DNA from: Halichondria panicea
Lineage: Eukaryota; Porifera; Demospongiae; Suberitida; Halichondriidae
Length of the DNA: 64,000 nucleotides
NCBI RefSeq assembly: GCF_963675165.1
Contig: NC_087392.1
Span: forward strand, 2,743,001 to 2,807,000
Reading direction: 5' to 3'
The notes under the pieces are model-generated. The model ran no database searches. It had not been told where the DNA came from and saw only the letters and a list, made by a program, of their open reading frames with translations. A program made the translations under genes and the position numbers. Positions 4,019 to 57,519 of this stretch are shown one piece after another. Positions within the stretch are counted from its first letter, which is position 1; each line of letters opens with the position of its first letter.

Positions 4019-7000
4019 TTAATTAACAATGTTCCGAACAATTTCTAATATTTGATTTGCAACCATTGCAGCTTCCCTTGCATTACTTGGGCTGAACTTG
4101 TTTGCTGGAGCAGCATGAGGACAAAACGCATTAGGATACCTTGTCTTGACATAGTAGTCCTCCAATATTCGTGTGAGACTTTGTAAGCCAGCTGCAACAG
4201 TGCTTCTCTCTTGCTCAAGGGCACCAGCATACCCAACAAATTTGTGGTGAATCAGGCCTTCAGGTTGAAGCCCACACACTTGATACATGCCAGCTTTGAC
4301 CGACTTCTCAGCTACCTGACAGGCAAGGAAGCACACATGTGCAGAGAGTTGCTCTCGAGGGTTCTGCAGACAAGTGACCTTCTCCAACAAGAGATTCATC
4401 GCTTCAAAGTCATACTCTGCTTGTTCAAACCATGCCTTCGCTTTATCTGGCTCACGATGAACACGCACCCTCCCCACCCAATCGCTAGCAGAGGACCCCC
4501 ATCCAAAACGTTGGTAACTTCTCTGCTCTTGTCGCCAGGCGGTTCTTCGTGATCTAACAATCTCATCCCACAGATCAAAGTTATATCGACTATAACTGTT
4601 ATGAGAGTAGTGAGCATCTGGCTCCCAATCCTCCCTGGGGTCTTCAAGAGGCCTGCCATCATTCAGTCGTTGGATTTGTTGTTGCAGGAATTGGAATGCT
4701 TTAGTAGCCAGAGGGTTAGAATTCTTGTCAGGGTGCCATTTGAGGTACATTGCCTTGATGGCTTTTCGTTTTGTATTCTCATCTTTTATCTTAGAGATTT
4801 GACGAAGTTCATCACAAATTTCTGCCATGATATCTTTGAGCTTGTCTCCTTTTACGGCGTCCCATATCTTAACATTCTCATTCTCTTGGTCCCATATTAC
4901 CAGCTCTGTGGAATCGCTGTTAGGGTTTCCAAACTCTTTCACACTGAAGATTTTGTATAGCTCGATTACAGATACAATTTTTGTTTCCGAACCATCATCT
5001 TCATCCTCAATTTTTACCCTTATCAGGTATTTGTCAGGCTCAAAAAACTCATCTTCATCACAACCATCAGCAACAATGTCAGAAGGAATCTTATACTCCA
5101 CGACGACATAAATGTACTCCTCCTCGTCAATTTCCAATGCAGCCATTTCTTGGGGTCTGAAGAAGTTGTTGATATCTGACTGAAGTCTGTGATGCCATGC
5201 CTTCAGAACTGGATCGCCTACTTTAGGTTTGTAAGTTCTATCTAAGGACTCTTCCAGTTGAAGGTCTGAAATACTGATGCCAAACCTCAATAGGTAATCC
5301 TGGAGCTCATCTATATTATCAACACGTATCATAAGTTTAACGGCTTTGAAAGCATCAGTCTGATTTAAATCTGTTAAACTTGTGCTCATTTGCATGTTTA
5401 GCACAGATTTGGTAACTTCTTTTGACAAATCGTCGACAAGGTCCGTAACACTAAAAGGATCTAATTTTTCCTCAAGGTAGAGAAAGTAGCCTTGATCATC
5501 ATGTGGCGGTTGGAAAAAGAAATCAACAGAGGCTGTTCCTATCTTAGCAGGTGGGTCCACTAATTTTAAGAAAACATTGACTTTAAGATTCTTTACTGTG
5601 AAGACTTGAAGATTCTCAAGAAACTTGCTCAAATGAGCTGAAAAGCACCGACAAAGATCTGCATTATTGCCCTTGTGTATCAAGATCTTAGATACCACAC
5701 CAGCAAAATGAGGAACACTGCAGGCTTTCTTCAATTTCAAAGCAAGTGGACATTGGTCTGCCTCCTTGTTTGGTGTGCATGTCTCGTTGAGCTCTAGAGT
5801 GCAAGACAACGACAGCGGATGGGGTTGTACATGTGTTGGGATCTTCTCGAAAATATCTTTTGCAGTAAATCCATATTCCCCACGCTCTTCTCTCCTTCCC
5901 ACCAATAGAGCCATGAATGAGTATTCTACTTGGCTCATGTCAAAATGACCATTTTTGAATCCCATGTCATCAAAGAGCAGCGTTTTGCTGTCAACTAGTA
6001 CGCCTGTTTGCGCTGACTTATCTGGTAGGTACAATGGATACTTTATCCTAGAAACTTCTGTTGGGATGGCTGTGTTCGGTAAGAGTTGGTACAGTTTCTT
6101 TAATAGCTCTTTGAGAACCTTAATGTCGTTAGGATCGTAAGGCTCTTGGCTGTACTGCTTGATGGTATCCAAGCCATATTGTACCTGCTCAAGTTCTATT
6201 ACAGTGTGTACACCTATTAGTGATAATCGAGGGAGAACATTAAAGAACTTATTCGGAAGTGGATTCAGAATGGGTAGAAAGTTCTTCAAATTTTCTGGAT
6301 GAGTAGCTACTACACCCACAGGTTTGACGAGCACTGGTCTCACAATGTCTGTAACCTTTCCCTCTTGACAAACAGGAATGCAGGTAATGTCTCTAACCCT
6401 ATCTAGTTGTACCTCAGTTCCATTGATGTTCAAGAAGAGGAAATGATCATAAACAACATCAACCAGAGAAAAGCTTCGTTTTGGAGCTATCAGCTTGTTT
6501 GGATACTTGTGGAGAAGACTAACGTTAGAAAACTCTGTTTGAGAGATGTTGCAAAGGTTCTGAATGACATCTTTAGGAGTAGGTTCCAAAGCAATTCCAA
6601 TATTGTCGAAAAACCTATTTACTTTTTTTCTCTCATAGGTGAAATGGAGCCGAGGTAATTCAACAATACTTCTCACCGTCCAGACAATCGTTACCGTTTT
6701 GCTTTGAATAACAGAGTCACGTAGTGTGGTAAGGCTGAAAGATTTTTTGCCTTGCATAACTATATTTTTAGCAGGAATAGGTGATTTTATCCACGCTAAC
6801 CTCGGCAGTTTTTGAGCACAGACAAAGGGGATGTTTGATATCTCCCTTAAGAACATTTCATCTTCTTGCCAATCCTCCTCATAACAAAGGTGCTCAACCA
6901 GGATTTTGGATGCTGCTAGTAGCTCTGAATGCTTACCATTTGTAATCCTCTGACAATTTAAGGTAAATTCTTCCTTGGTTGGTTTAGTCCTCAAACCAAT

Positions 7001-10000
7001 ATTGCGAAAGAAGGGAAGCCATTCCGCATTTTGCAATTCTTTTGGTGGGAAGTAAACATTATCTGGAAAAAGTTTGAAAACTTTTTCGTCGGGGTCACAA
7101 AACTCACACAGTGGTTTTAGTACTCCATTCACGGGCAGACATGGAAGCTGTTGAAGAGCTGCCACAAACAAAGCAGCTTCATTCTTTCCTTGAAGGGATT
7201 TACTCTTACTTACTGCAAAGGCAGTTTTAAAAAGTTCTTCAGTGTCTCGAATGTGTTTTAGATGACTTATTCTTTCATCGTGACTGAAATTACTAAACTT
7301 TGGGAAAATGAACTCTGTGTAGACTGAGAGTGGTGATATGTCTCTAATTTGAAGCAGCTCTTTCCCCGTTCCTAGTTGACTCCAATCTCCGTCAGCTGGC
7401 AGAAATATAGCCTCGTGTTCATGTAGCCATTTGTCACTTCCAACAGTTGAGACAATTCCAGGCCAAAGATAAACATTCTGCCGGAGTGCTTGATACTGGT
7501 GGTTGATGTCACAGAAAATAGGGAGATTTTTGATTTTTGATAGGCTATCCATGTCTTGGGACAAGTGAATTTTGGCAAGATACATAATGATCTTTTGAAT
7601 GTTAGTATCAAGGACAGCACGTGTATAGAGTGTACCCGAGCCACTCATTTTCTGATGCAGGTGGAACATATTACTTAGGATGGAACCTGGCTGTGAGAAT
7701 TGTGGACAAAACTTTTTGCACATTGATACACTGCAAGTGGTAGTGTCAAGGACAGGCATACCATGTTTCGAAAGCAGTTCATACATACTGTAACCAAGAG
7801 AGTCACACACTGGATCTGTATCACTTGGCTCAGGTTTATGTGGAGGAATCACAGGAAGCAGCTGGTCCAGCTTGCTGCAAGAAAAGCCCTGACCATCAGT
7901 AGAGAGGAGTATGGCCCATTCTTTCACTGTTTTCGTCAGGCAGTTTGAGAAAACTATCTCGTTTTCAAAGCATTTCCATAGAAGAACAAACTTGTCTTTT
8001 GGGAAATACCTTGCTACGTCCTTCACTGTATGCACATTATGGAGTACATTTGGCATGGCACGCTTGAGAATTTCATGAACAATATTCGTATTTTTATCAG
8101 AAGACCGTAGAAAGTATGAATTTTTGTACCTAATCTCTACGAGTGAAGGATGCAGAAAGTGATTAGGGCTGTCTGAAAATATACTGGAGTAATCTTTAGT
8201 AGTGTGAATCACTTTTGATTCTTTGTCAAAGCAACATAATTGATTGTCAGCGGTGAGCAACAAGGGAAGGCTCCAAGGCTCATCTGGAAACTCCACAGCG
8301 CTCGTTTGGGCATCTTTCTTTCTAAGAAGGTACTTAGAGAACACCTTAAAGTCTTCAACTGTTTGAAAAGAAGTGTTTTTGATATAGCAAGGGAACTCCC
8401 CACTATTAGCAACTTGATCATGGAATTGCTTGTAGTAGGCATATACAGTGGCTGGTGTGGCTTCAGGTAGTTCAATTTTAACGTCTCTGAAATGCTTTCT
8501 AAGCCAGATAGGTGCCACAGAGAGATGAAGACCAATTCTTTTCAAGATAGGTGCAACGTTCCCAACTCTCCTACTTGATTCCCAAAAATGGACTTGATTT
8601 GAGGGATCCTCCTTATTCACAAGTGGATGAAACTCTGTGAGAAATACTTTGTCGTTCCCCATACCAGATGCTCTAATGACTATATGCACTTTTGCATTCC
8701 TTTCATAAAGTTTTTTGTACATTTCTTCAGCAAGTACTCTCATCACACCCTCAGGTACTACACCGACTAAACTGGTGGTACTGCCTGTTTGGGCTTCTCT
8801 AGGTGGAGTTGTATCTCTTTCGGACAATTCATCAGCTGATGCAGATTCAGATTTTTGGTCAGTTTCTCTAGGACCATTAGTAGGTGGTGATTTGTGCCAA
8901 TAAGGAAAAATACTGTAGTAGGACTGACAACTGTTTTGAATCTTCCTTCTTGCAGAGTAAGAAGCTAGCACATAACATTGTTGACAAGAGACTACAAATT
9001 CAGAATATGAGGAAGCTATGGCTTCAATCAGATTTATGTTCCATCTGGCTTTGTCATCAGGTGCTTTTAAGTCTCTATGCTGCCATATACTACTTCTGGC
9101 AGCATCAAGAATGAAGTTACCGTTGACATGAACTGGCAGACTTGAGTGCATAGGGAGCGGCAGAAAGCAGAACACATTGCCCTTGAAACCTGTACTGCCA
9201 ACTGGAGTAGCAAGGCCATGATTGGGTCTGATTTGCTGAAGAAATTGCCACGTTTGTTTAGACTTCATAGAGTCACCGATTCCTCGTTTGACAACCCATT
9301 TTTCAGATGTCTTAATGGGAGCTTCTTCAGACAGGGTGAGATCATAGAACACTGACGTGGGTGTCGTGTCTCCGTCTGATGTGAATTTGCTAGCACTGTG
9401 TTGGATAGCAAGACGCTGATCAATAGCTCTGTCCTCTAGGCAGGCCTTATAATGGAATTTTAGAAGCATGTTACTATCATTTGCGATGATAAAAAATTTC
9501 ATCTCAACTACATTGTTCAGAAATATGAGCCCATCTTTCATCTTTTGAGCCCAATCAAGAAGATGCTCCTCCAGTTTGCTTGCAGAGAGAACAAGAGTGG
9601 CTGTGTCAGTTACGGTATCTATATCAATAAGTTTAGACTTCTTTACAAGTTCAATATTGTGTCGAAGAGGGAATCTAAACAGTGAACCACTCTGCTTGAC
9701 CTCCATGGGACAGCCAGACACGTTCTCACGAAGATAAGAGCTTTTTATATCGCTCCAATTTTCCCAAAATCCATCAGTAACTTTATCGTACATTCGCCCA
9801 GGCTTAAGCACTGTAGCACCTGGGATGTATCGCACATGAGGATCTAATATACACATTGTGTTGCCATTGGTGAGGAAGCTAGGACAGTCGGTGAGATGGT
9901 ACACACAATTGAACCCAATACCAAATTGACCAATGGATTCTGATTTGGATCGCTTGCTGCCCAGACCCAGTTTCTGAATGCCTTTCAGGTCGTCTGGTGA

Positions 10001-13000
10001 GAACCCCATATCATTCCACACCAGCAATGCCGGCCCTTGAAGATCCTTCCAGTTAACAGAAGGGATTTTGTTTGTACCATGATTTCGTTTGTCCAGAATG
10101 AAATACAGTTGCTTGGCCTTTGCATCATCAGCATTTTGTAGCAGTTCTTTAATGACAGTTATATCAAACGGGTACTCGCTTAGAATGGTCTTGATTCTTT
10201 GAGTCAACTCTTCGTGTTGTCCAAACTCTACCCCATCAAAATCTTGCTCTGATGACTCGTAGCTTTCCAAAGCCTTTGAACGTATGGGTTTTACTCCAAG
10301 TTTTAGTGCCACAGGTCTAGGTATTTTGTAATATATTTCATGATAAACGCAGTCACTGCCCATTTTGCACCAGGGAGCATCATTGTAAACCAATAAACTA
10401 GTTGATCTCATGATCTTCTTTTCATCTGGGAGGTAAACCGCTTGCTCACTTGTATCAAATTCAACTTCTTCATCATCTAGTTGAGATACGATTGCTTCGA
10501 CTAGTCTTAATTCTCGAGATCCAATAGGTTCATCACTATGAAAGGTATATAAGCTTTCCAGTGCTTTCAATAGCTGATCTTTCGGAAAAATGTCTTGTAT
10601 GCCGAGAGCTTTAATAAGGTTTTCCTTTGATTTTAAAGAATCTGGGAGCTTGTACAAAAAAGGACCACTCCTACCCCACTGAATAGCCACACTTTGCGGG
10701 GACACAAACTCTTCTCCGGTCCAGAGGCATGGAGTGCCACGAAGTTTCTTCAGCTCGCTAATCTCCGATGTGTTCTTGCCCAGCTCAGTTTCAAAGAACT
10801 TGCAAATGTCTGAACACATTTCTTCAATCCACTTCTTTACTGCTTGTTCTTTGTCGGGGTTTTCTGTGAGATATTTTGTGACTTTGCGACCAGCAACATA
10901 TTGCAGGTGTTTTACCACGCAACTTAAAGTAGGAGTTGCTCTAATTTTGAGTGCACGAAGAGCATTATATGGAATAGAGCTACAACCACCATGTTTTGGA
11001 GCCTTTTCACAAACGATGGCAGTTTGAGATCCAACAAGTTTGTAATTATCTTCTCCATAAATGACATCACTACAACTCTGTAGGGGTCGTCCCCTGCCTT
11101 GCCAGAATAAAAACTCAGGATACCTTTTAGGAGGACTCATGACAGGGAGAAAGTCTATTTGAGCTAGTTCGCTTAAACCATCTGGAAAATCGTTTGTTGA
11201 CTTGACTTGTTGGTCTACACACTTCAGAATAACTTCCACTTTTAGCAAAGCTAATGCTTTGTTGCTTTTGTAAAGCTTCTGGATATGCTTTGCTCTCTCG
11301 ATCAACATCTTTAGTGGCAACAGATCACTAATCATATGTAACTTTCTCAGGGCTACACGAGCAATTTCATTGTCATAAATGCTAATTGGAAACACTTCAT
11401 CTTCTTCATCATAAAGAATTGAAAACAATGCGTTGGGATCGACAATCTCACGGCAATGTTTCACAGTTTTTCCTTTTGGCTTGCAAGGGATACATTTGTT
11501 GTTTACGAGGTAGGAATTCAAGTAATGGAGACCAGTAATTCTTGGATTAGCAATTGTCTCTGCATACTTTAGCAAAAGCAGGTGCAGAACTTTATTTCTA
11601 GTGTCCTGAGATACAACTAAATTTTTAAAGTTTTTGAAGAATATTTCTAAGAACTTCTTTTCCTCCATAAGATAATCAGTGCTCTGGGTAGGCAAACTTT
11701 GCCTATAAATCGCTGGTAAAGAAACCAGAGAATACTTTAAGCTCTCCATCACCTTCACTACACATTCTGGCAGGGAGTGGGAATGTTCGTGGGCTAGACA
11801 GAGAATCGTTTTTGAAAGAACTATTATCTCATCAAAAGACATCCATTTCTGTCGATTGGAAGAGTAGAACAGTTTGCTGTCCATAATAAGCTCATAAGTT
11901 GGTTGCACTAACTCCTCCCATGGATTCACAATCTTCAATTTGTTTTTCAATGGCCACAAGGAACTAAACACATAGCTACTGACTGACAGATATTTATCTT
12001 CACACATAAACCGTACAGCGACGAGGAGTGTATGAATTGCTTCTGGGACAACAGATTGCATCAGTGTAACATTCCAATCGGCTTCACTGTTCTTCCGAGA
12101 ATTCCTGTCAGAGGAGTGAATTCCAGTTCGATCGTTTCTAACAGCAAAATTGCTACTGATATGTATTGGCAGTCCTGTTTTCTGTGCAAGAGGTAAGAAA
12201 CAAAACATTTCTCCTTGTACTGGAGAGGGAAACTTTACAGTGCCATTTTGAATGATGCAACAGGCGGCTGAGGAGACTCTGTATTCAGGGTCAGTACTTC
12301 TGTGAGTGCCTACCAGCCACTTCTCAGTTTGCTTTGGTATTTTTGAACGATGTTCTATCACATCAATAGAAAGAAGGTTTGCAAAAGTGCTCGACACCAA
12401 AGAGCTCTCTGCAGAAATAACTGCCCGATTGTTCTCTCTCCGAATTTCAAAAATGAGAGTTGGATCACTTTCTGTTGGATTTATACGACTGAAAGTTAAA
12501 CGATTAACATGTTGTAGAAAAAGCAGAAGTTTTGAGCCAGCTTCCCTTATCTCTGTTTCCAACTTATCAATTAGGGTAGAATCGTATACCCTGCTGCTCA
12601 ACTTACTGCCGTCTGTTCTGAATGGGAATCGAAACATTGTCCCTTTGTAACGTTGGTTCTTCTTAAAGCCAAACAAGCCAATGTAAGGATCAAGTTGATG
12701 AGATTGTGCAACTATCTCTTCTGTAATACGCAGACACTTGCCAGGTCTAGACCTATCTTGATTTTCTTCCCTCAAAAACTTAAGCGCAGGATCAAATATG
12801 TACAAACGATCTCCACTGACGAAAGATGGAACGTCAGTAATGTGATATACTGAGCAAAATCCGAGGCCAAATTTGCCAATTTTCAAGTGTTGATCACTTT
12901 TTGTGGCACCAGCTAATTTCTCAATGTTCTTAAAGTCATCGTCAGAGAATAAGCTATTGTTATGGACCACAAGAGAAGGCCCGTGGCATTTAGCAATTCC

Positions 13001-16000
13001 TGGAAACAGAAGCACATCAGGATTATCTGTATGCAAGCGTGTGTCATAGCAGATATTGACTTCAGTAGCCTCTGCATCGTCAGCATTTTGAAGTAGTTCT
13101 TTGATAATAGTTAGGCCGTCATGATAATCCTTCAAAATGTTCTTAAGCCGAGTAACTAGTGACTCATGTGGACCTACATCACCAAATGCCTCAGAGATGT
13201 TCAGCTGCTTACTAAGGGGTCTTACTCCCAGAGCACTTGCTAAATAGGACACATTACTGTGAATGAATTTGTAGTCTTCGGCTTTGTAGAAAGACCTTAG
13301 ATACGTCAAGTCCGAGAAGACGACATCTTTAACATTCTCAAGTTGAGGAGATGCAGAACTAGAGCTAGAACTGATAGGCACATAAATAATCGATTCATTA
13401 CTTACATTTGAAGGCACTGACACTTTTCCTTCATCGGTGAGCCATCCAAGAATGCTTTTGACCACAAACCATTGTTTTTTGGGAGATACTTCCTGGAAAC
13501 TATTGTTTCGAATGTCAACAAGGACATGGAGTATCTGAGGTGTAGAAAATCTCTGCATCGCTCCAAATTTGAGAAAAAGTTTAGAAAATCGCTGTAAATC
13601 TTCCGGAAGGAGGTATAGATATGGTTCTAGCTTGTCTGAATCGGAAAATTCTGCGTGCTCTTCCAATGCTACTACTTGAGGTCTCACAAATTTCTTCTTA
13701 CTCTGAACCCATATCCATTCCTTGTTGTACAAGAATGTACGTGATTTGCTGGCTTCTAAGTTATTACTGAGAAATTCATACACATTGTATGCAACTGGTT
13801 TAATGAACTTTTCTAGATTCACAGTGCTGCACTGCTTACTGAAACTCATCACACTCTTGAAGTGATTCAGTACCATACTTGGCTGCAACTTAGTAGATAG
13901 CAGAGAGTCTAACTGTTGAGGTATCTGCACAAAGTACGCTTGTGAGCCAACTAAATATGCACATTTCGTGAGGGTTCTACTTGTACAGCATACAACATTA
14001 GCAGAAGCAGCAACAAGGTGGGATGCACAAGTAGCACCTTTCCATTTAAAACTTTCAGGATAGTTCCCAGGACTTGTTTGCAGCACTGGTAAACAGTTAA
14101 TTTGGCTGAGAATATACCTGAAATCTCTATCTAACTGCAATTGCTGATTTCTGAAGTAAACAATTTCTTTGAGCAGACTTAGATGTGAAGACATGTAATT
14201 AAGCACTGCTTCCATCCTTGAGAACTCTTGTTCGGTCGCTTTCACAGGAATATCTGTATTCCTTCCGTTGACAGTTGTGAGTATATCAAGCAGTCTTTGA
14301 GCATTAACGGACGTTTGAAGACCACATCCTCGAAGATTGGCAACAAGTTCCCATTCGTCAAATGGTGATAGAGGAAATGCATCTTGACCTTTAAAGAGAT
14401 CTTTTAGCTCCTTACTGGTTGGATCAAATAGATCAATTGGTGCTTTCCGCTTGCCCAAACTGGATGGGAGGAACGGCAGTTTACTCAAGGATACTGGTAT
14501 TCCTGCTCCACTTTGAATTTTGAGAACAGGAAGTAGCTGGACGATCTCCTTCATCAGCACATCAATCTTTGAGCTTTCAACACAATTATCAGTAATCATA
14601 GGGAAAATGCTGTGTTGAATGAGGTCACTCATTGTACTAGGCATTCCCACGTGCATTTTCAAATGATTGAATAGTTCCACTTGATTTTCTGCTCTCGAGA
14701 AAATGTTGAGTTTATCGGGAATGTTAGTTATTGTCAACTGAAATCCACGGGGCTCAAGGATTGCTTGGGAGTTCCAGGATAGGGTTTGTGCTGCGATAAC
14801 AGAGATCATCGTAGGACTGTTGAGTAGTTTAAACATAGATAGGTGTGCTAGCACTGATTTCTGAGATGATCCTAAATGGACTGGCACCTTCATACTCAAA
14901 AATCGTTGGAGATTCGTGGCCTCTGGCGTACTAAAACTGACACGGGAAACGTTTTTTGTGGCAGGATTAGCATTACCAATGGCCGTAAGAATTCCAGCGG
15001 GACTGCTACTCTTGTGTACATACTGATACAGTTCGTTGTGCCATATAAATGGTACGTACTTGAGCATTCCACAGTTTACTTTCAGTTTGGATAATGCAGT
15101 CAGTATCTCTCTAGGGCAATCATCTGACACAATAACAACACTTGACTGAGCAGTTTGTGCTAACTTTATCACACGGAAACCATCTCTAACACTTGTGGTG
15201 GCTAAAGGAAGAACTGGCAGACCGATAAAGAGTGAGAGGTCATGACTTTGAACCCAATTCCAGAAAATTTTAAACCAATCGGTAGGAAAAGTTGAACAAG
15301 GAAGTGTCACAATTGATTGCTCCTTCCATTGTTGAGGAAAACAATGAGGTAATAATTGGGCTACTCGATCGGTATTGAGTATTTTCAACTGGGTCTTTCC
15401 ACTTTTAGCTACTTTTAACAACTTGCTCTGTAGCGTTCCCGAGGCATCAATCAGAAACGAATCCAGATTGGGAAGAAGGCTCCTAGGATATCCTTTAGAA
15501 CAGACGTATCGAGCATTTGAACCTGGTTGAGCAAATTTACTGAACTGACCATTGGCAAGAGGAACTAGAGCAATGGTTTGAAGATCAGAAAAGTTTTCGT
15601 CTGCCAAGCAAAATTCAAGCAGCTTAAGTTTCTCAGCAGTGGACTCTCGCTTGTAAGATGCTTCATTTCGGCTTATCTCTCTTCGAGTGATCTTTGCTGT
15701 AATTGTCTGAACTTTTATGTGACTTCCATAGTGTGCTAAAGCTGTCCACACAATCTCTGGAGCCTCAACTACGTAAAGAACACACCCAGTGAGAACTCTA
15801 GTCACAACGGTTTCAATAATTTCCTTTTGGGGAATGAAAATTGCATTTCGGGGAATGATCCAGCAGTTGAATGCAGCGCACCACAAACAGTCTATCCCTA
15901 AGATTTTAGGGTATAGATCTGGCAGAAGACCTGACCAGTGTGAATTGTGAAGCTTAACAGGATTTGGCCAAGCAAGGTAGAACTGCTCTTTACCATAATC

Positions 16001-18171
16001 TTTGATCTTTAGAAGAAGTTGAAAATAGCATTCAGGAAGCAAGTTTTTAATGAGGAGATCATTCCAGTGGGACATTGTGTCATTAGTGCGTTCGGAACTT
16101 GTCCATTTTAGGGCTCGCCTATTATCATTCAAGCTGAAGGTGCCGTTGACATGAACTGGCAAATTAGTAAAGACTCCATCAGGTAGGGGAAGAAAACAAA
16201 ACACTCGCCCATTATCATCTAGATGCTGTGACAATTCAAAGGCAACTCCTACCCAAGGAAATATTTTGAGTTCATCCGCTATATCTAACACCTCTTGATT
16301 TCTTGAGCCCACATGAGTAGATACAACCCAATGACTTGTGTCTGATCGACCCAAGGAATTGTTTACGGTCACTTTGAAATCAACAGTAAATGGCGTGCTG
16401 TTGGTAACACGGCAAGAATTTGTCTTGTGTAGTTGAGCAAGGAGAGCGGATCTTCGTTGATTAACTTCTAGCAAACATCTGGAATCAATTGAGACGGAGA
16501 AGGAAGGTTTATATTCTTTAAACACTGAGTCAATGTAAACTACTTCAATCTTGGTCACTGATTTCAAAAACAGGAGCAAATACTTTGCTTCTTTTCGCAA
16601 TGCATCCAAAAGCTTCTTAACCTTATCAACAGTGTAAATGTTTCTAGATAGAACAGAAGCTTCCTTTCGCAGTGGAAGTCGAAAGATTGAATAGGAATAT
16701 TCTGAAGAGCCGCTACGGAAATTTGCAAGACCATGTAGTGCTGTAGCAATACTACCATCTTGCAATTCACGAAGCTGAAACTGCCGACCTGGGTCACCAG
16801 GCCATAGCTTTCCTATAGGGTCCAGAAAACCAACATCCCGACCGCTCACAAGGATTGGGAGATCTGAAAATGGTATAACACTAATGGTTATTGTGCAGAA
16901 CCATTAGAGACACTACATAACTATTTTTTCCCCACTGATTGTACTGCTGAAAGAATTAGTATTATGCTCAGATGTACCTGTAATGTGATAGACAGAGTTG
17001 AAGCCAATCCCAAACCTCCCAACTTTAAAGGGATCCTCGGCTTTGATACTTTCTTGCGGTTTCTGTATCCCTTCCCAGTCGCTATCAGTAAAACATGCAT
17101 CATTGGCAACCACTAGAGCAGGCCCTTGGAACTTGGCCAGGTCAGGGTGAGGGAGGTTGGAGGTGCCATGTTGTCTCTCATCTACGTAGAACCAAACAGT
17201 CGTTGCTCCAGCATCGTCAGCATTCTGGATCATTTCCTACACATGCAAACAACTCACTATATATAATTATACTCTTGTAACAACAAAGGGAAAACAAAAG
17301 TCATATAGGTACATGTAGCACAGCAACTGCCAACCACAATGCTATAACAGTTCCAAACCACAATTAAGGTGGTATTGTATAACACAAAATTGGGGTGCAA
17401 AATATGTTTTTAACAGGAACGAGCTCCTTCTTGGGCTATCCTTCAGGAAAGAAATTCCAAGAGAAAGCTTGGATTTGTGTTTTCAATCTAATAGTATCAG
17501 CATGGAGATCTGCAGACTGTCTTGGCTCTGCAGCCAGTAATGCATTAGCTCTTCTCAACATTGTCGATCCCGGTCTGTAGCAATTATATAGAAAGTAGAG
17601 TTTCCAGCTATTGTTGCTAGGTACTTTCAGTTTGTTGCAGCTCTATAGTTCTATAGCCCCGTGCTATTTGCAGTGTCTCCAAAATTAGGGACAGAAAAAA
17701 TACGTTCGTAGAAAGTTGCTGTTCTACTACTATGTAGAACAGCAACTTTCTACGAACGTATTTCTACACTAGGCTAGGTGTTATAGGTGGCTGCATGCAA
17801 GAGAGCGAAAATATAGGTGTAGAGCTACACTTCTAACTCTAGTGTTGGCATGCAGCAACCAACACAAGCCAAAAGTACTACGTGAGCTCCTGGTAGTACT
17901 ACAAACCACAAATGCACCATTTACACTCATACTCATTAGCCTCCCGGAAGTTTGAGAAGCTTATAACTCAGGTGTGTTAACTATAGTAGTACACCACATG
18001 ACTATCATTATAAGTAACTATAAAAACACAATGCATGCATGGGATGACACAATTCACCTTGAAGATCTGGCCATCTGGGTACCGCTCCAGTATTTGCTTT
18101 ATCGTGATATAAACTGGTGGCTGCCTTTGTCCGAACCTCCGACCCCTGCTTGCTGCAGCAAACTGACTCAT
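4019..18171 (-). CDS. SACS: Sacsin-like co-chaperone, giant exon
   Basis: Three coding exons are read: 18171-18058, 17236-16978 and 16863-4019, giving about 4,405 residues (human sacsin is about 4,579). The junctions keep frame and the start is the first ATG after an in-frame stop. Three sacsin repeat regions each open with an HSP90-like ATPase fold carrying the N-A-D-D-A motif, near residues 43, 1379 and 2366. Each also has a G-x-F-G-x-G-F glycine loop. A J-domain with H-P-D lies near residue 4168, and a HEPN domain fills about 4270-4405. Known sacsins link Hsp70 and proteasome work on filaments and mitochondria. The N-terminal ubiquitin-like domain of the vertebrate protein is not seen. Sacsin-like genes may be multicopy, so orthology is less sure than family. 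Confidence 0.93.
17698..17763. repeat. Perfect 30 bp inverted repeat in sacsin intron 1
   Basis: Arms 17698-17727 and 17734-17763 are exact reverse complements separated by 6 bp. It lies inside the 821 bp first intron of the sacsin-like gene. Confidence 0.85.
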
Positions 18172-42000: not shown

Positions 42001-45000
42001 TATGGTCTCTCCTGTGTTGCTAGGAGATTGGCCGCTACCTTCCCTGCTCACCACTTTGGCTCTCTGGAGCAGAGCCAGCTGGCTCTCCTCGTGACAGCTC
42101 TGTCCCAGCTCACTGTGCTTTGCGCTCAGAGGTCCGCTCAGGAAGAGGTGTGTAAAAGGTTGTTTTATAGTAATGAAACGTCTCGTTATGTACATAATCA
42201 TTTGTAAGCTAAGCTACATTGTATAACTCGCTAATGTGTGCCGTGTTTAGTTTGAAGTCTGTCCCTTCATGTTGTGAGCTTCTTCGCATCGATTCAAATT
42301 CCTTGTACTCAAGTAGCCCCAAACATACTGTCTTTCTTAGATGGAGGAGAACAGTCTGATGTATCAAGAGTCATTGGAGCACTTCCTGGAGGTTTGGGTC
42401 CACCTGGTGCAAATGGCTCCCCAGCTACTCTCTCAGCCCCTGGCTGAGATCTTCACGGCCTATCTCCAGAGCAAGCTCGCTGCCCCACGAGGATGGAGAC
42501 TAGACAGAGACGACTCAGAGGAGATTCTTGACACGCAAGAAGATGATCGTGTAGCATACAAGAATGAACTTTCCAGTGTGGGCTGCATCGCTAGGGCTAT
42601 TCCTCACCACTCACTCCCTCTGTTGCTTGGACTACTGACACAGTGTATATCTAAAGTCATGCAAGTGCTGTCTATCGTACAACAGACCCCACACACCCTC
42701 CCCTCACATCAGGCACATCTCCACATGCTCCACGAGGACCTCCACTGGCTCGTTCTCATCACTGGCTACACACTTTGTGACGTTGCAGAGGGAGAGAGTG
42801 TTCAAATCCCCACTGAAATCATGAAGCACTCCATAGCTCTAGCAAATAACCGATCCAGCCCTGAGCTTCAAGAGGGGTTCAACATTGCCGGTCTGGTTGC
42901 TATGGTAACAGAGGGAGGTGGGCAAGAGCTGGAGTTGAACGGATACGACCCTGTTGTGGCACTAGTAGTGGTGGTGTGCCAATTGTGTGCTGTTGAGAGG
43001 ATGTTCATCTCACAACACCTAATGGAGGCACTCAGTCCACAGCTATGCGACTCGTGTGTATGGTGCTTGGCGAGGATTACTGAACCTTACATCCTCTTCT
43101 CGGACGAGACCCACAGCCAGGTTTGTGAGTGTAGGGCTAGTACAGTTTCTAGTATATGTACTGAGCATGAAGACTAGACTACTACATCTTGTAAGATGGA
43201 GAAAACTAGTGTCTACATTGAAACACTTACCGCCACAATAATGTTGAACATCAGTTACCCCCGATACACACACGTGCTCAATTTTGTGTCACTCCATAGG
43301 TTAGTGTGACACTGTCAGCTGTATTTGGAGCCAGCAGTGAAAGTGGGCGGTGGTTGACTGGTCACATGCTGGAGAAGGTGGTGTTTAACCTCTCAGTATG
43401 GGCTTCAGAAGAGCAGCTGGCCCTCTCCACCCTGCAACTACTCAAGAGTATCGTCAAGTCCAATAGGAGGCGAGTATACATTCATCATTCAGAAAGATCA
43501 TGTTATGCTTCTACATCATAGTGCCCATCTCAGTTTTTCTATACACTGTATTACATAATTATTGTATACTTGACAATTTTCATATGTACATTTTTCACCT
43601 GATTAATCCGTCCTCCCACCAGAGCCTCTCTGGCTATCGAGTGTGATGTCCTCTGGTCACTGATGCGTAGCTTCTCATTGTGGGAGGAGCCCCTTGCATC
43701 TCTCCCACCCCCCGTTCAACGAGACCTCATGGGAAGTCTTGTACGATGTGCCTTGGGGCAAAAGAGACAGGAGTTCCTTGCACAGGTATGTTTGGTTAAG
43801 TATGGTCAAGGTCAAACACACTCATGGTGATAACAGATCATAGCCCATGTTTTCATCATGTATTCTATACTCCTTGTCAATGTGGCCTAGTAGGGAAACA
43901 TTCTTGTACGCGTTACCCTTTCTACAGGTTTTATAATTGTCGTAATCATCTATTTGCAGCTCTTGCAACCATTGAGGAGTCGTTTCCAAAGCATTGTAGG
44001 CTCTCCTCATCCCCATGACTCTGCTATCCAGTGCTCCCTGCTGTCTATCTTGGAGTCTCTGTGTGGTCTATGTCTGAGCGTGTGGAGCGAGGGTGCAGTG
44101 GACGCATTCTCCTTTCTTCTCCCCTTCATGGAAACCTGTGTCTCTCTCATTGAGGTGTACCGTGAGAACAGTGAGGTGATCCCACTCGTGCTTGAGCTGT
44201 TCTCATTGGTTGCCGAGAATCTCATTGTGTTTCTGGACCAGGTATGTGCAAAGTTAGTTGATGCCTATACGTGTACTGTATATGTATAATATGTGCACAT
44301 GTGATGTACATATGTATTAACGTTGCATTAAGCCTCAATTGGAGGGCTAGCCTGTAAATTTCATCAAATCTCTCTCTTTTTTAGGCGCACACTGTAAAGC
44401 TGTATGAGATCAGTTTAGCTCTCATACGAATGTATGCCAAGTGTAGTACAGGTGAGGATTTTGATACATTTGTATTGAGGTTACTGGGCTTAACCACATA
44501 CCCAATTACATTCCCTATTTATGGGCTAGTTGCAAGGCTACAAATTGTATGTACCGTAGCACAGCTGAATATTGACGGCCCTCAACCTATAGTACAATAC
44601 TTGGTATTGTTTTTGGTTTCCCCCAGGCAAATACAAGCGAGGAGGTGTGGCAGAGGAGGAGACTTGCGACGATCTGCTCCTCTTCATGAAAATGTTGTCC
44701 CACCTAACCACGAAGGATTTCCTGGATTTCGGGGGAGTGTCCGGTCAAGAGGTGGGCGTGTCACCTGCTGATGTAGTCATCACTGGCGTACAGATCATCA
44801 TTCCTCTGATGACTGAAGATATATTAAAGGTACGGAATAGGTTTGCTGTTAGTGCCAAGTGGTATCAATTAGCTTTGTGTGTATGCCTACGTACTCGTAT
44901 ATGTACGGTGTACCTATCCCTTGACTCCGCCAATCATCAGGTCAATCTAAGTAGACAATAAAATAGTTTTTCTGTTCTACCCTGCACCTTCTCCATTTGG

Positions 45001-51000: not shown

Positions 51001-54000
51001 TAATAAAAACGTAGTTATGGAATGGATGTGTCGACTTGCTGCCTGGAGAGTATAGAGAGCCTGGCTGAGCACTATGGAACCACCCCCTCCCTCCACTCCG
51101 TAGCCTCGTTTACACAGTCACTCCAACACTTTTTACAGGTTAGTAGGTCGATACAGTAATTGAAATCACCTCTTATCCTACACAGCACAGTGCTAGTGTT
51201 ATTACAGGGTGTTAGATATACAATGTACATGACATTGTGTAATTAGTAAGGGTGTGCACAGCGAGTCCCTACCTAGTACTTAGTGTTAGAATTTTGTCCA
51301 TCCGTCTGTCATGAACTGGCACAATAATTATCTGCTTTTTGGACTCTTGATCTCTACGTGAGTCATTGTACTTTAGCTACATCATGTGCATACAACTCAG
51401 ACAGGACACAGAGACTCTTGAGGCCGTATATAGGCATGCAGGTTTCCAGCAGGTCTTGTTCACTATCCGGACGGCAAAACCTATTTACATAATACTTCAC
51501 CGGGCTCCAGCTATCCTGAGGGTAACTTCAGAGGGAACTAGCTACTAGATGGTTTGACTAGTCTTTCGCCCCTGTGATGCCCAAATTTAACTATCGATTT
51601 GCACGTCAGAATCGCTACAATCTTTCACCAGAGTTTCCTCTGGCTTCGCCCTATTCAGGCACCATCTTTCGGGTCGCAACAGGCACACTCTCACTCAAAC
51701 CCGCCACAGCATTACCTGGGTGTACTTGTGTCCAGCAGGAGCCATATTATCGTATTGTGCTCCTCCTGTTACATGTTTCACTTTCTGCATACTTGTAATT
51801 TATAGTTAGTGTGTATAATATTTGGTCACGTACAGTATTCAGATGCTAAACAATTAATACACGCTTGCAGCTTAACTTCGTATTAGAGAAAAACCTCCCA
51901 ATGTTGCAATGGCACAATCACTACTTCTCGTACACAAATCATATAACCCAACGATACACAATTTGCCCCAAACTGAAACATGCTCTTTATGCTCCTAGTT
52001 TATTTGTTTGTGTCATGTATGTAGGTACTGTTTGAGATAATGTTGAGTAGCTCGTTTGACCTTGATCTGCTGGAGCCCTTTGCCGCAGCAGTTTTTGCAC
52101 TAATTTGTTCCTTTAAGGTAAGTGTCACATAATTCTCTGTTGTAAATTCTCTGTTGTAATTTAAGTGTTTACTCTTAATGTAACTGGTACGGATGATCCT
52201 ATGAGTTCTTATCACACTGTTTGTAATGGCATAGATTGAAGAGTTAGAGGGATTGGAAACAATTAAAGGTACCCTCGAATAACATCCGCGCTATGCTGCG
52301 GTTTAATCGAGGCTGTCTCATGTACCTATTTCTACACACAGTGTATAATAAATTACAAGTATCTGTGCTCAGTCCGTGCAACTCACTTATATTTCAACAT
52401 CTATACTCATTGTAGTAGTTATAACCAGCACGCTTACATGTTATAGCAATAAAACTCCGTCTCTTACTACAGTTTAACCTCGATTATCCGGACACCTTTG
52501 GTTCCAGAGGCAGGCCAGATAACTGATAATCGAATAGATAACCACGCCTTGATCCACCCACTTTATTGATAACAGCAGTGCCACATAGTTGTCTGCGCAT
52601 GCGCAGAAGATAAGCAGGCCTGTCTCCATAGTAACAGCTGCACCGCGCATGCGCATTTAAGGGACACGCCCATTTTCTGAATTATTAAAAAGAAAATTGC
52701 CAAGCCAAGGTTGTACTGTACTGGGTGTGGTCAGTCATTAGCAAGTACTACACGTGGCTCACGGACTAGGCGTGTCTTTCATGTCGGAAAGAGATGATGT
52801 CTCGAGGAAACACAACTTTCTTATTTGAGGGAGTTACCTGGTAAAATAGCCTCGTTCATAGGGCGTAGCGCCGATAGTTTTCGAGGCTCCGTTGCAGATT
52901 CAATGTAAAAGTATCAATGCAAAAGTATCACGTGCACCACTCCGTTATCAATCCCTCTAACTCTTCAATCTATGGTCATGGCTAGGGAAGTTTATTTATG
53001 GCTCCTGTTGTATCGAGCCCAAAGCCATATTAGTTCAAATTCTGAGGTTGTGAACCACAAACTAAAATGGCAAAGAATGTTGAAACTATCGAGTCTAGCT
53101 ATGGTGTTAGTAGCAGGGAAGAACAAGACACAGAGTTTGATTTCCTGGAACAACCAAACCCAGATTTCTTCTGCCCTGTTGCCATGGAACTATTAGTGGA
53201 ACCTCTGCAAACCACTTGCTGTGGTAATCATTTATCTTTAGCTGTAGTCAACAGGATCTTTAAAGAGGGGAAACCGTGCCCACTGTGTATGAACGAAACG
53301 TTTGCTCTGAATGATGACAAGTACTTCAAACGAAAAGTAAAGGAATTGAAAGTCCATTGCTCCCATAAGAAATGTGGGTGTGAGTGGATCGGGGAATTGG
53401 GGGACCTGAACCACCACACCACCTCCTGTCCAAAACGTCCCTGGAAGTGCCAATACTGTGACTTCGAATCAATCTATGAGACCGGACCAAATAACCACAC
53501 CCCCAACTGTGCCAACTACCCCTTGCCTTGTCCCAACCAGTGTGAGATTGGCACCATCTCTCGCTGTGATATTGAGAAACACCTGATGGACTGCCCTTTG
53601 CAACTTGTGGAATGTGAGTTTTTCGATACTGGGTGTGAGATGAAGGTCCCTCGGAGAGATCTGGCCAAACACATGACAGAGAATGCCCAACACCACCTCA
53701 TGACAGCCACCCTCCTCAACCTGAGACTCACGAGAGAGTTACACCAGAAAATGGAAGAGAAAGACAAACAAATAAGCAGTATTCAGGAACATGTTATTAA
53801 ATTAGACAGTCAACTGCAACATTCTGAAACTTTGCTACTCAAAACATCCAACAAAGTCCATGGAATTGAGCAGCACCTGGCAAAATTGGATACCAAATTG
53901 AGCGGCCAACTGACTAGACTCCATTGTCAGGTTGAGGACACAGTTCGTTTGAATGGCTTCACCTATGATTCTTTCAATCTTACGGACTTCAAGAAACAGC

Positions 54001-55936
54001 AAGCCAAAGGAGTGACTGGCTGTTGGCTAAGCGAACCATTCTACAGCTTTCCCCTGGGCTACGTCTTCAAGCTAGGTATAGATACCAATGGCTGTCGTGA
54101 AGGAGCTGGAACTCACCTCTCAGCATGTCTATGGCTTGGGCCAGGGGAACATGACAAAGAGTTGAAGTGGCCAATCAAATGTGACGTACATCTTCTGATG
54201 CTCAACCAACGAAGAGATCATGGCCATCATAGAGTTATGGGTACAGTAGTGTACAGCAGACCATCTGTCATTTACGAGCACAAAGTGATCGGAGCCTCGT
54301 ACAAGTTTTTCCCAACTTCTAAGCTAGGCTACGATTCCGATACAGATACAACGTACCTTTTTAACGATATCTTGCGTTTTCGTATGTACCTTCGAGTGAG
54401 ATCATGATTAATTTTTATGTTAGTTCATGATATAGTTTACCGTACTGAGTGCAAGTCACTTTTTCTGTGCTAGTAGCCACCTCAGTTCAAGTCATGGGGT
54501 TGTTGTATGTTATTTCTTCACATTAATTGTTGTCCTTTGGTATGAATGAATTTTTCGATATTATCAAGGACATTGGATAGTAGGACATCAACTAAAATTG
54601 AACAAAAATCATTAAGCCTGCCCACTTTGTCACAGACTTTAATGGGAGCAGGCATTAAATCAAGGGTGTGAATTAACAACTTAAAAAATTGTGTCGCTCC
54701 TAAAGTATCAGTCTTAAAGCTACTTTTGGGGAAAATAAATCCATGTGACCAGCTCAACACCGCTGTTTACTTACTGTGATACTAGGAAACATCCAGTACT
54801 GTGGAGTGTGACTTTGCTGATGCTAGATGTACCAGTGGCCACTCATTAAAATACAGCACTCCACCATGCATTTAAGCACTTCTAAACTAACTAGAGCACT
54901 GAAGGGCTAACCCTCGGCTGTTTACTTGAATACAATCAATAAATAGTATGTATGAAGCATGTAAGCTGGCTAATTAGCAAGTAACATGAGCAATGAAATT
55001 CCATCGTTCCTGGTACAGGATCACTTTAGCTGTAAATACGTACCTCGAGAAAAGGACGCATGCAAGTAACGTGAGCAATGAAATTCCACTGTTCCTAGTA
55101 CAGGATCACTTCAGCTTTAAATACGTACCTCGAGAAAAGGACGCATGTAGAAGCTAGAACGTGTAAGTTTAAGCTTGGCTTTTATACGACTTTAACATCG
55201 AAATCTGCTGTTAAAACTAATAACTTGTTTCTAAGCATCTAGAAGCGGCTATTTTTGCTGGGGGCTTGATTGAGCTGTGTTGCAGCATAGTTGTGAGGTA
55301 TATATATAGACTATCGAGCAGCAGTAGTGGGTGGAACTATTTTTGCAGCAGCAGCAGTGGGGTGTGGCTGTTTTGCAGCAACAATTTGTGTCAAGCCATT
55401 CGTTGGTCCATGTCAATCTTATACGCAGCAGATACTGGCACATAATAATCGTCTAGAAGAGAGGAAGAGATGGAGCTGTGTCTAGGGTTGTCTGTCATTT
55501 TGTGCAGTTCTAATTATTGTGGTACTAAGACAGTGTTATGTTGCTATGCCCTTGGGATATAAACTTAGGATGCATGGCATATATTGCACTCAGTCCTCGG
55601 GGCTTATTGCTTCGGTGCAATATATGCCATACATCCCTCATGCCCATGTTATAACTTATGGTGCATAATCATAATTGTGTTTTCCACCTATTATTATTTT
55701 GATCCAAAAATTTTTTTTTATTTGTACACACACAGGACCACTACTCATCTCTTGCTGGAGCCATAGTAGGCAACCAGTGCAGTGATGCTCATGCCCAGTC
55801 CAAACTGATCGAGTCGTTCAATCAGCTGACCCCTCCCTCACTCAACCTGGACCTTTCAAAGCACTCTAGAACTCAATTTCGAAAGAACCTGGAACACTTT
55901 TTACCACATGTAAAAGGATTTTTATACTACAGGTGA
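39055..55936 (+). CDS. XPO4: Exportin-4
   Basis: Seventeen exons are read: 39055-39105, 39453-39558, 39643-39809, 39978-40097, 40243-40353, 41329-41735, 41976-42147, 42341-43120, 43300-43469, 43623-43785, 43960-44241, 44385-44451, 44627-44829, 50683-50813, 51015-51138, 52025-52117 and 55736-55936. They give about 1,115 residues (human 1,151), with frame kept at every junction. Exportin-4 is a Ran-dependent HEAT-repeat karyopherin that exports eIF5A and SMAD3 and imports SOX-type factors. Recognisable blocks include KLPYNMCKFILE, DFVLFQAVSAI, LQEDDR-type HLAAP region, LSVWASEEQLA, GVAEEE with DDLLLFMKML, and SPADVVITGVQIIIPLM. The exon 9 donor is GC instead of GT. Intron 13 (5.9 kb) and intron 16 (3.6 kb) each contain another gene. 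Confidence 0.95.
40354..41328. other. XPO4 intron 5, dispersed repeats
   Basis: This intron is built largely from repeat fragments: a piece starting GAGCACTAAAGTGC, a piece shared with the foldback at 49862-50086, and two related copies (about 40840-40960 and 40985-41100) that recur in inverse orientation at 46680-46870. A CAAA run lies near 41120. Confidence 0.55.
45469..45645. mobile_element. TIR element, 177 bp, with G-run/C-run interior
   Basis: The ends CAGGGTGTCATACAG and CTGTATGACACCCTG are exact inverted repeats flanked by the 5 bp direct repeat ATTCA. Inside are runs of G, C and T that could fold on themselves. Non-autonomous. Confidence 0.8.
46200..46442. mobile_element. hAT-like MITE, 243 bp
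   Basis: The ends CAGTGGCGGATTCAG and CTGGATCCGCCACTG form near-perfect TIRs of the kind typical for hAT elements. A CTTTT-containing direct repeat of 5-7 bp flanks it. It interrupts another dispersed repeat, so it is younger than that repeat. Confidence 0.75.
47269..49727 (-). CDS. Proton-dependent oligopeptide transporter (POT/SLC15 family)
   Basis: Three exons (49727-48624, 48559-48214, 47600-47269) give about 593 residues. The protein is a multi-pass membrane carrier of the POT family, which moves di-/tripeptides or histidine with protons. Evidence: the first helix (LLLLLFVYFVESFAFY), GRLFYPFAGVLADTFWGRYK (the classic GG-ADxxxGR-type loop), then YFLWYYFARNASSLLG at the FYxxINxG motif. 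The last exon has LEFIYAQAPEPMKGLL, the family's E-x-x-Y-x-Q-A-P signature. The start is the second in-frame ATG; the longer frame upstream reads into a dispersed repeat. The gene lies antisense inside intron 13 of XPO4. The subfamily is unassigned, though the length suits SLC15A3/A4-like members. Confidence 0.88.
47808..47970. repeat. Palindromic repeat of the TATAGCG family
   Basis: It starts TACCGTATAGCGTGAAATTT and ends with the inverse (CCCGCTATACGGTA), giving TIRs of about 20 bp around 120 bp of unique sequence. It lies upstream of the last SLC15-like exon. Confidence 0.65.
49862..50086. mobile_element. Long foldback element
   Basis: Arms of about 90-95 bp (49862-49950 and 49991-50086) are near-perfect reverse complements around a loop of about 40 bp. 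One arm-like fragment also occurs in XPO4 intron 5 (near 40598-40690). No protein is encoded. Confidence 0.8.
52230..52974. mobile_element. TIR element, 745 bp, next to the TRAF-like gene
   Basis: Terminal inverted repeats are perfect over 26 bp (starting CATAGATTGAAGAGTTAG). They resemble those of 37491-38029. Flanking 7 bp repeats GTAATGG and GTCATGG differ at one base. Its right end is 92 bp before the ATG of the nested TRAF-like gene. Inside, near 52470, is a CAGTTTAACCTCGATTATCC stretch resembling a pogo/Tigger end. Confidence 0.82.
53067..54407 (+). CDS. TRAF-like adaptor with MATH domain, intronless, nested in XPO4
   Basis: A 446-residue single-exon frame. Layout: RING-like segment about 33-76, TRAF-type zinc fingers about 95-215 (repeated Cys/His spacing, ending in RRDLAKHM), a coiled coil about 215-290, and a TRAF-C/MATH domain about 300-446. 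TRAF proteins carry TNF-receptor/IL-1/Toll signals to NF-kB and JNK. The RING is degenerate: FCPV, CCGNH and PCPLC are kept, but the usual C-x2-C pairs are incomplete, so E3 activity is doubtful. It lies on the same strand inside XPO4 intron 16 and must be transcribed separately or spliced out. A possible AATAAA poly(A) signal is at 54734-54739. The specific TRAF orthologue cannot be named. Confidence 0.88.
   Translation: MAKNVETIESSYGVSSREEQDTEFDFLEQPNPDFFCPVAMELLVEPLQTTCCGNHLSLAVVNRIFKEGKPCPLCMNETFALNDDKYFKRKVKELKVHCSHKKCGCEWIGELGDLNHHTTSCPKRPWKCQYCDFESIYETGPNNHTPNCANYPLPCPNQCEIGTISRCDIEKHLMDCPLQLVECEFFDTGCEMKVPRRDLAKHMTENAQHHLMTATLLNLRLTRELHQKMEEKDKQISSIQEHVIKLDSQLQHSETLLLKTSNKVHGIEQHLAKLDTKLSGQLTRLHCQVEDTVRLNGFTYDSFNLTDFKKQQAKGVTGCWLSEPFYSFPLGYVFKLGIDTNGCREGAGTHLSACLWLGPGEHDKELKWPIKCDVHLLMLNQRRDHGHHRVMGTVVYSRPSVIYEHKVIGASYKFFPTSKLGYDSDTDTTYLFNDILRFRMYLRVRS
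54978..55152. repeat. Tandem duplication of about 85 bp
   Basis: Two adjacent copies starting GCAAGTAACATGAGCAATGA and GCAAGTAACGTGAGCAATGA end in the same CTCGAGAAAAGGACGCAT. They belong to a dispersed repeat whose middle (TGGTACAGGATCACTT) also occurs at 40780 and, inverted, at the 5' end of the SLC15-like gene. Confidence 0.7.
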
Positions 55937-56337: not shown

Positions 56338-57519
56338 ATGGCAACTAGCACATACTATACTAGCAGTGACCAATCACAGATTGAGTATGAATTTGTTGGT
56401 GAGAAGCCAAATGAGGATTACTTTTGTCCAGTCAACTTCAAACTACTACTTCATCCGCAACAAACCTCGTGTTGTGGACACCATATATCGAGGGAAGCTG
56501 CTAGCAAGCTCTTACAACAGCGGGCTCCTTGTCCACTATGTAAAACACTCACTTTCAACACATACAATGACAAGTACTTTTGTCGTAGAGTTGAAGAAGT
56601 AAAGGTTTTTTGCCCATACAAAAAAAGAAGTTGTGACTGGATTGGAGAAGTGGGAGCACTAAACAAACATGTGTCCGCTTGCTCGTTACGTATGTGGAAT
56701 TGTGTTCACTGCAAGTTAGATTTTGATCAACATATGATTCATTGTCCCAAAGCTTTAATTCCATGTGAAAATAATTGTGACACTACTTTTTTGAGGCCTG
56801 AGGCTACAGACCACAAGTTGATTTGCCCCTTGGAAACTGTAGAATGTGGTTTTTATGGATTTGGTTGCACTGTGAAGATACTGCGAAAAGATCTTGCCAA
56901 GCACATGGAAAAGACCGGCATGCAACATCTAATAGATGCCACTGTCAGCAATCTTAAAATGACGACTAAAATTAGGCTGGAAATGGAAGACAGAAATCGG
57001 GAAATCACTACCATGCAAAAATCGATTAATGATGTGAAACAAATTATGTTAGATGTGCTCAAAGTGTCATCATCGCATGGAAATCAACCGTTTGCTGGCT
57101 GTAATCAAGTAGGCTTTTCACCTCAGGGACAGCGTACTGCATTTGACCAATATGTAAACTCCCAGCAGCAGCTAAGACAGGGGGAATCACCTCCCTTCCA
57201 GTTTGATGAAGTTGGACATTTTGGGGCAGCTACATCACAAAATAGAAATCCCAAACAACAACCACGACCCTCACAAGGTTACACACCCCTTGGCAACCCT
57301 CCTGCTCAGCCCAAACCTGGTGAAGTGCCATTCAGAGTGAATATGGTGGCTGAGCCGCCTCGTCAGCGAGCAGTTGGAGGAGGTGGTGCGTTTGAAAAGC
57401 TACTGTGTGGAACTCCTGGCTGCTCATTCAAAGGATATCGTGACCTGAGAAATTTATGCCCTGATTGTTATGAAGAGACCACTCGTCTTAAAGCCCCAGA
57501 CAAGTTCCCGCTTGTATAA
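56338..57519 (+). CDS. TRAF-like zinc-finger protein ending in an A20-type zinc finger
   Basis: A single-exon frame of 393 residues from the first ATG; the upstream part of the frame has no ATG. Residues about 1-215 parallel the neighbour at 53067: the same degenerate RING-like block (YFCPV, CCGHH, PCPLC), then TRAF-type zinc fingers ending RKDLAKHM, and a short coiled coil. There is no MATH domain. Instead a Gln/Pro-rich linker (about 255-350) leads to a C-terminal finger with Cys at 357, 362, 374 and 377, spaced C-x4-C-x11-C-x2-C, with the A20 pattern CGTPGCSFKG and LCPDCYEE. A20 fingers bind ubiquitin and occur in A20/TNFAIP3, Rabex-5 and ZFAND proteins. A ubiquitin-binding modulator of TRAF signalling is inferred. 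XPO4 ends 401 bp upstream. Confidence 0.88.
   Translation: MATSTYYTSSDQSQIEYEFVGEKPNEDYFCPVNFKLLLHPQQTSCCGHHISREAASKLLQQRAPCPLCKTLTFNTYNDKYFCRRVEEVKVFCPYKKRSCDWIGEVGALNKHVSACSLRMWNCVHCKLDFDQHMIHCPKALIPCENNCDTTFLRPEATDHKLICPLETVECGFYGFGCTVKILRKDLAKHMEKTGMQHLIDATVSNLKMTTKIRLEMEDRNREITTMQKSINDVKQIMLDVLKVSSSHGNQPFAGCNQVGFSPQGQRTAFDQYVNSQQQLRQGESPPFQFDEVGHFGAATSQNRNPKQQPRPSQGYTPLGNPPAQPKPGEVPFRVNMVAEPPRQRAVGGGGAFEKLLCGTPGCSFKGYRDLRNLCPDCYEETTRLKAPDKFPLV

Follow-up and report, generated by a model that had tools for sequence, protein, structure and literature searches.

A predicted TRAF gene whose C-terminal part appears to come from the genome's own A20-like gene

In animal ubiquitin-driven inflammatory signalling, TRAFs promote the response and A20 restrains it. 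The gene examined here, an uninterrupted single ORF of 393 aa at positions 56338..57519 (+ strand), raises the question of how parts of both came to stand in one polypeptide, and what such a protein might do. Positions are those of the window, the whole 64,000-nucleotide stretch of DNA that was analysed (C16:2743001-2807000), in which the gene starts at C16:2799338; the genome searched is eukaryotic, with 131 Mb in 39 contigs. The original prediction held that one polypeptide joins the N-terminal part of a TRAF to a finger of the A20 family, and this is what we find, both halves lying in one open frame with no intron required. The start codon is supported by related TRAF genes, since 9 of 14 paralogs likewise begin with MAT, MAS or MAK.

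A TRAF-type half that lacks MATH

Residues 1 to about 240 form a predicted member of an expanded TRAF subfamily. Residues ~12-240 are 39-46% identical to 14 close TRAF loci on C16, C14 and C4, and many further, more distant TRAF loci also match this half. One of the 14 is the neighbouring gene at 53067..54407 (+; 446 aa, 41% identity to the N-terminal half), which carries zf-TRAF and MATH and is the paralog on which the Pfam scan was run. Three of the 14 (L006, L008 and L010) have shorter or cut frames and are possibly broken or split genes. In a 14-row tree of the chimera and 13 paralogs (L016 and L018 were unused, and L008, with its cut start, was left out), no branch is longer than that of the chimera, which lacks a close sister. 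Its N-terminal dN against the same 13 paralogs is 0.45-0.52, with dS saturated in nine of the comparisons and 2.3-2.7 in the other four.

TRAFs are laid out as RING, TRAF zinc fingers, coiled coil and MATH, and the chimera resembles them in having a RING-like block and zf-TRAF fingers homologous to those of the paralogs. The predicted TRAF fingers are confirmed by Pfam, with PF02176 (zf-TRAF) at residues 132-189 (56731..56904, +; 2e-9) and PF15965 (zf-TRAF_2) at residues 123-193 (1.7e-9), both above the cut-off, and their Cys and His are common to the chimera and its MATH-containing neighbour. A first TRAF-type finger, Sina_ZnF-like, lies at 56593..56676 (+) and scores 2.3e-6 and 28.4 bits, below the cut-off of 32. 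The RING-like block itself (residues 30-68; 56425..56541, +) can be aligned to TRAF6 (3hcs), retaining C46, H48/H49, C65 and C68 at equivalent positions, while three of the four Cys of what we take to be zinc site 1 have gone (N33, S51 and A54). No RING family exceeds the Pfam cut-off in the whole protein or in a 56-aa fragment holding the block, for which zf-Nse (0.0011) and zf-RING_2 (0.0016) both fall below it. The top match of that fragment is thus zf-Nse, a MIZ-type finger, at sub-threshold level. The predicted RING-like block therefore stands as a region alignable to TRAF6 but not as a complete RING. Cys is missing from the same three positions in 13 of the 14 paralogs (the remaining row, L008, is unread there, having been shortened by the start-codon rule), so the loss is a trait of the subfamily and not of the chimera alone. 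Because these three ligands are absent across the subfamily, E3 activity of the block is doubtful.

The chimera departs from the TRAF layout most plainly in its C-terminal half. Pfam detects no MATH in it at E up to 10, although the same scan detects MATH in the neighbour, and no OTU, which is found in the A20-like protein described below. The finger region occupies the position that MATH holds in the neighbouring paralog, in agreement with the proposed replacement. The coiled-coil signal is not significant: the simple heptad score was matched by 61 of 1000 shuffles, and alignment identifies a short, possibly helical stretch (56920..57057, +) that is longer in several TRAF paralogs. The accompanying premise of a terminal MATH in known animal TRAFs was overstated, as TRAF7 ends in WD40 repeats. 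TRAFD1, TRAF7, RNF41 and FBXO30 are all TRAF-finger proteins without MATH and in this respect resemble the chimera, whose best PDB match is FBXO30 (2yre, 5.6e-5); we know of no A20 finger in any of the four. The MATH repertoire of the genome is itself very large, with at least 150 scored places (on C3, C12, C14 and others).

Several other features of the window were recorded. An uninterrupted sacsin-like ORF of 4276 aa occupies 4019-16849 (-), with SACS at 6.8e-156, HEPN at 1.3e-9 and a sub-threshold DnaJ match, and a eukaryotic 28S rRNA fragment (positions 675-954 of a 3401-position model) lies amid protein genes at 51538-51821 (-). A weak Exportin-4 match (E 0.086) at 55736-55936 (+) may mark the final coding exon of an exportin gene, and there is a weak TPR_XPO7 match (E 0.041) at 42341-43177; if these two belong to one gene, the TRAF gene at 53067-54407 would sit within its intron.

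The source of the tail and the identity of its finger

TRAF similarity runs to residue ~232-242 and A20 similarity begins at ~235-247, which places the fusion junction at 57040..57077 (+). Elsewhere in the genome, residues 237-393 match a single place, the terminal part of an ORF of 1388 aa on the same contig, 112 kb away (C16:2683037-2687203, -). This ORF has OTU (1.2e-14), zf-A20 in five stretches, nine A20-kind Cys patterns and, within its OTU region, the strings DGNC and GGHFV, and is a predicted A20/TNFAIP3-like deubiquitinase. Because the N-terminal half is homologous to the TRAF subfamily and the tail to the C-terminus of the A20-like protein, we read the gene as a chimera, consisting of a diverged TRAF N-terminus (residues 1 to ~240) and an A20-like tail (~244-393). 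We hold this status, and the origin of the tail from the genome's own A20-like gene, with high confidence. Neither this apparent source nor the extent of the transferred piece, ~150 codons and hence more than a finger alone, had been foreseen. Another OTU protein of this genome (L024 3194-5137, -) has two zf-A20 fingers, in a layout that is presumably Cezanne-like.

The A20-derived segment (57077..57519, +) shares 71% DNA identity with the A20-like gene, continuing through to the stop codon, and at the DNA level the tail is found in two places in the genome, the chimera and the A20-like gene. A convergent Cys motif is ruled out by this DNA-level homology. Protein identity over the tail is 63% by one aligner and 55% over 168 columns by BLASTP. 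At the very end it is far higher, with 94% DNA identity over the last 146 bases (137/146) and 43 of the last 44 residues identical; comparison with the A20-like gene thus delimits a terminal module of 44 codons at 57385..57516 (+), made up of the finger and a tail that closes with FPLV. No similarity between the two 3' flanks is detectable in the 400 bases past the stop codon. A shared 3' UTR was accordingly not found, the local score of 13 being matched by 115 of 300 shuffles.

The finger itself (C357-C377; 57406..57468, +) has exactly the predicted spacing, C357-x4-C362-x11-C374-x2-C377. The Pfam zf-A20 match, on which the original prediction had made the identification depend, is absent: there is none in the whole protein or in two C-terminal fragments, and the finger is not among the 24 places (nine above the cut-off) returned by a genome-wide PF01754 search. 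We nevertheless set this negative aside, because 43 of 44 residues are those of the last finger and tail of a protein with OTU and zf-A20, and the assignment to the A20 family holds by that homology. Custom profiles gave results that varied with the profile. One built from seven A20 fingers of other proteins scored the finger at 17.0 bits, reached by none of 2000 shuffles and by one of 2000 with the Cys fixed. A broader, 19-finger profile gave a weaker 9.0 bits, reached by 8 of 2000 shuffles and by 45 of 2000 with the Cys fixed; under leave-one-out, 3 of the 19 accepted fingers themselves fell below that score. Against PDB sequences, the 46-aa tail matched ZFAND5 (E 0.3) and human A20 within E 0.3-0.5, behind a chance match. 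The finger is thus A20-type by descent, not by Pfam.

ZFAND proteins and Rabex-5 carry a single, N-terminal A20 finger on a non-OTU protein without TRAF fingers; the chimera likewise has one such finger on a non-OTU protein, and ZFAND5 is a weak match of its tail, but here the finger is C-terminal and TRAF fingers are present. Human A20, which has seven A20-like fingers according to PMC5135002, has in its ZnF7 (2eqf) the same Cys spacing, and the chimera shares its terminal finger and tail by homology with the C-terminal end of the OTU and A20-finger protein encoded in this genome. Unlike A20, the chimera has no OTU, a single finger and a TRAF N-terminus instead.

The coupling of a TRAF scaffold to ubiquitin binding was also part of the original prediction. 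Were the finger a ubiquitin-binding domain like ZnF4 and ZnF7 of A20 or that of Rabex-5, the chimera would act as a ubiquitin reader, and its A20-family descent and ZnF7-type spacing are both compatible with such a role. In the genome, HOIP-type LDD pieces are present and suggest that linear ubiquitin chains may exist; no OTULIN was found, in a search that had no positive control. The residues of the finger, however, argue against it. In human ZnF7, H769, E781 and F785 act in linear-ubiquitin binding, and E781D lowers linear tetra-ubiquitin pull-down by 65.9% and weakens NF-kB suppression, as reported in PMC13380576. In a by-eye alignment anchored on the 2eqf Cys, these positions read F364, D376 and E380 in the chimera, and the A20-like donor has the same F, D and E. 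With these residues unconserved, and E781D alone impairing human A20 in that account, ZnF7-style binding of linear ubiquitin by the chimera finger is doubtful. A double aromatic after the second Cys, which we take to be needed in ZnF4 and Rabex-5, is replaced by F-K in the chimera, as opposed to F-F in finger 5 of the A20-like protein. The prediction of ubiquitin coupling is therefore weakened, keeping the descent of the finger on its side but not the binding residues, and we regard a ubiquitin reader as unlikely.

Selection on the terminal module and the direction of transfer

We compared the chimera with the A20-like gene by pairwise substitution counts, which pool the changes on both branches. 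The last 44 codons differ by 7 synonymous changes and 1 non-synonymous change (dN 0.010, dS 0.27; P = 2.5e-4 against neutrality), as against about 21 synonymous and 66 non-synonymous changes in 94 aligned linker codons (dN 0.39, dS 0.43), counts that are rough because the alignment has gaps and low-complexity stretches. The two regions differ in this balance (Fisher P = 7e-4), whereas their synonymous rates are alike (P = 0.47). Gene conversion confined to the finger is unsupported, because the synonymous rates do not differ. The simplest reading of these sequence counts would be one duplication age, a linker free to change, and a constrained finger and tail.

This pattern bears on whether the gene is a young, drifting, lineage-specific chimera with no present role. 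The longest branch of the tree and the single copy of the fusion fit that description. However, if the chimera branch were unconstrained and carried half of the synonymous changes, simple arithmetic gives ~11 expected replacements, against the 1 seen in all; moreover, the 393-codon frame is open, the N-terminal dN of 0.45-0.52 stands against a dS that is saturated or above 2 for 13 paralogs, and the TRAF-finger Cys and His are shared with the neighbour. We consider it improbable that the chimera is without a role, more so than that it reads ubiquitin.

The order of events was read from two genes of one genome, and a rival view is that the tail moved in reverse, from the chimera to the A20-like gene. 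Two features oppose this. The GNQ of the chimera linker belongs to a repeated motif ([YHVD]GNQ) that has 12 copies in the A20-like protein and 1 in the chimera, and the A20-like protein bears nine of the Cys patterns to which the finger belongs. Because of the distribution of the GNQ repeat, the tail was probably donated by the A20-like gene, and we give reverse transfer very little weight. Although misassembly is able to produce chimeras, an artefact of assembly or gene model is scarcely credible: the frame is continuous without need of an intron, and misassembly is rejected because the two tails disagree at 29% of their aligned DNA positions, so that neither is a misjoined copy.

Two further genes on C4 carry A20-type fingers, L022 (1604-3697, +) and L023 (1479-3977, +), each with four A20-type Cys patterns and 83-89% identical to one another. 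Their zf-A20 scores are 22.5 and 22.7 bits, above the cut-off, in the genome search, and 16.8 and 16.4, below it, in the protein scan. Residues 400-637 of L022 match residues 895-1189 of the A20-like protein (29% identity, E 3e-26), and its N-terminal part resembles an adjacent ORF (31% over 334 columns, E 1.6e-43) that has a sub-threshold match to PPPDE peptidase. In L022 and L023, A20-type fingers thus stand behind an unrelated N-terminus, in what looks like a second and older capture. This points to repeated capture of A20 fingers in the lineage.

Possible roles of the chimera

Selection appears to have kept the terminal finger and tail of A20 nearly unchanged while the linker drifted. Because the finger and tail were kept in this way, the 44-residue module probably serves one and the same function in the chimera and in the A20-like protein, most likely the binding of an A20 partner. 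Lacking MATH, the chimera should not dock on receptors in the usual TRAF way. It could instead be an adaptor or decoy, tying TRAF zinc-finger assemblies to the A20 partner or competing with A20 for that partner, and the outcome would be a tuning, most likely a damping, of TRAF/ubiquitin signalling. The brake on NF-kB signalling that the original prediction raised remains a conjecture. Three pieces of a Rel homology domain are present in the genome and, with the MATH repertoire, fit an animal, perhaps a sponge. PMC5135002 describes vertebrate A20 as being recruited via ZnF7 and as competing with NEMO; by analogy, this would show that a terminal finger can act without catalysis, and is no evidence for the chimera.

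We put the adaptor or decoy role forward tentatively, at somewhat less than even chances. The reading as a whole, a chimera with an A20-derived tail and this kind of role, we moderately favour. A related and equally tentative view, if anything slightly less probable than the adaptor or decoy role, is that of an activator-inhibitor hybrid, in which the terminal module of the resident A20 took the place of MATH and was kept by selection as a built-in regulator, as part of a wider habit of this genome of copying A20 fingers onto other proteins.

We found no relatives of the chimera in viral_contigs or genome_contigs with six short peptide patterns each. In the literature, no TRAF-A20 fusion appeared in titles or abstract starts among the matches listed, and queries pairing the domain names returned nothing. 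Since donor, junction and selection pattern can all be identified for this natural fusion, the gene offers a small, testable module, 44 residues long and preserved in both proteins. It also indicates that a lineage so rich in MATH domains may rewire innate signalling through domain capture.
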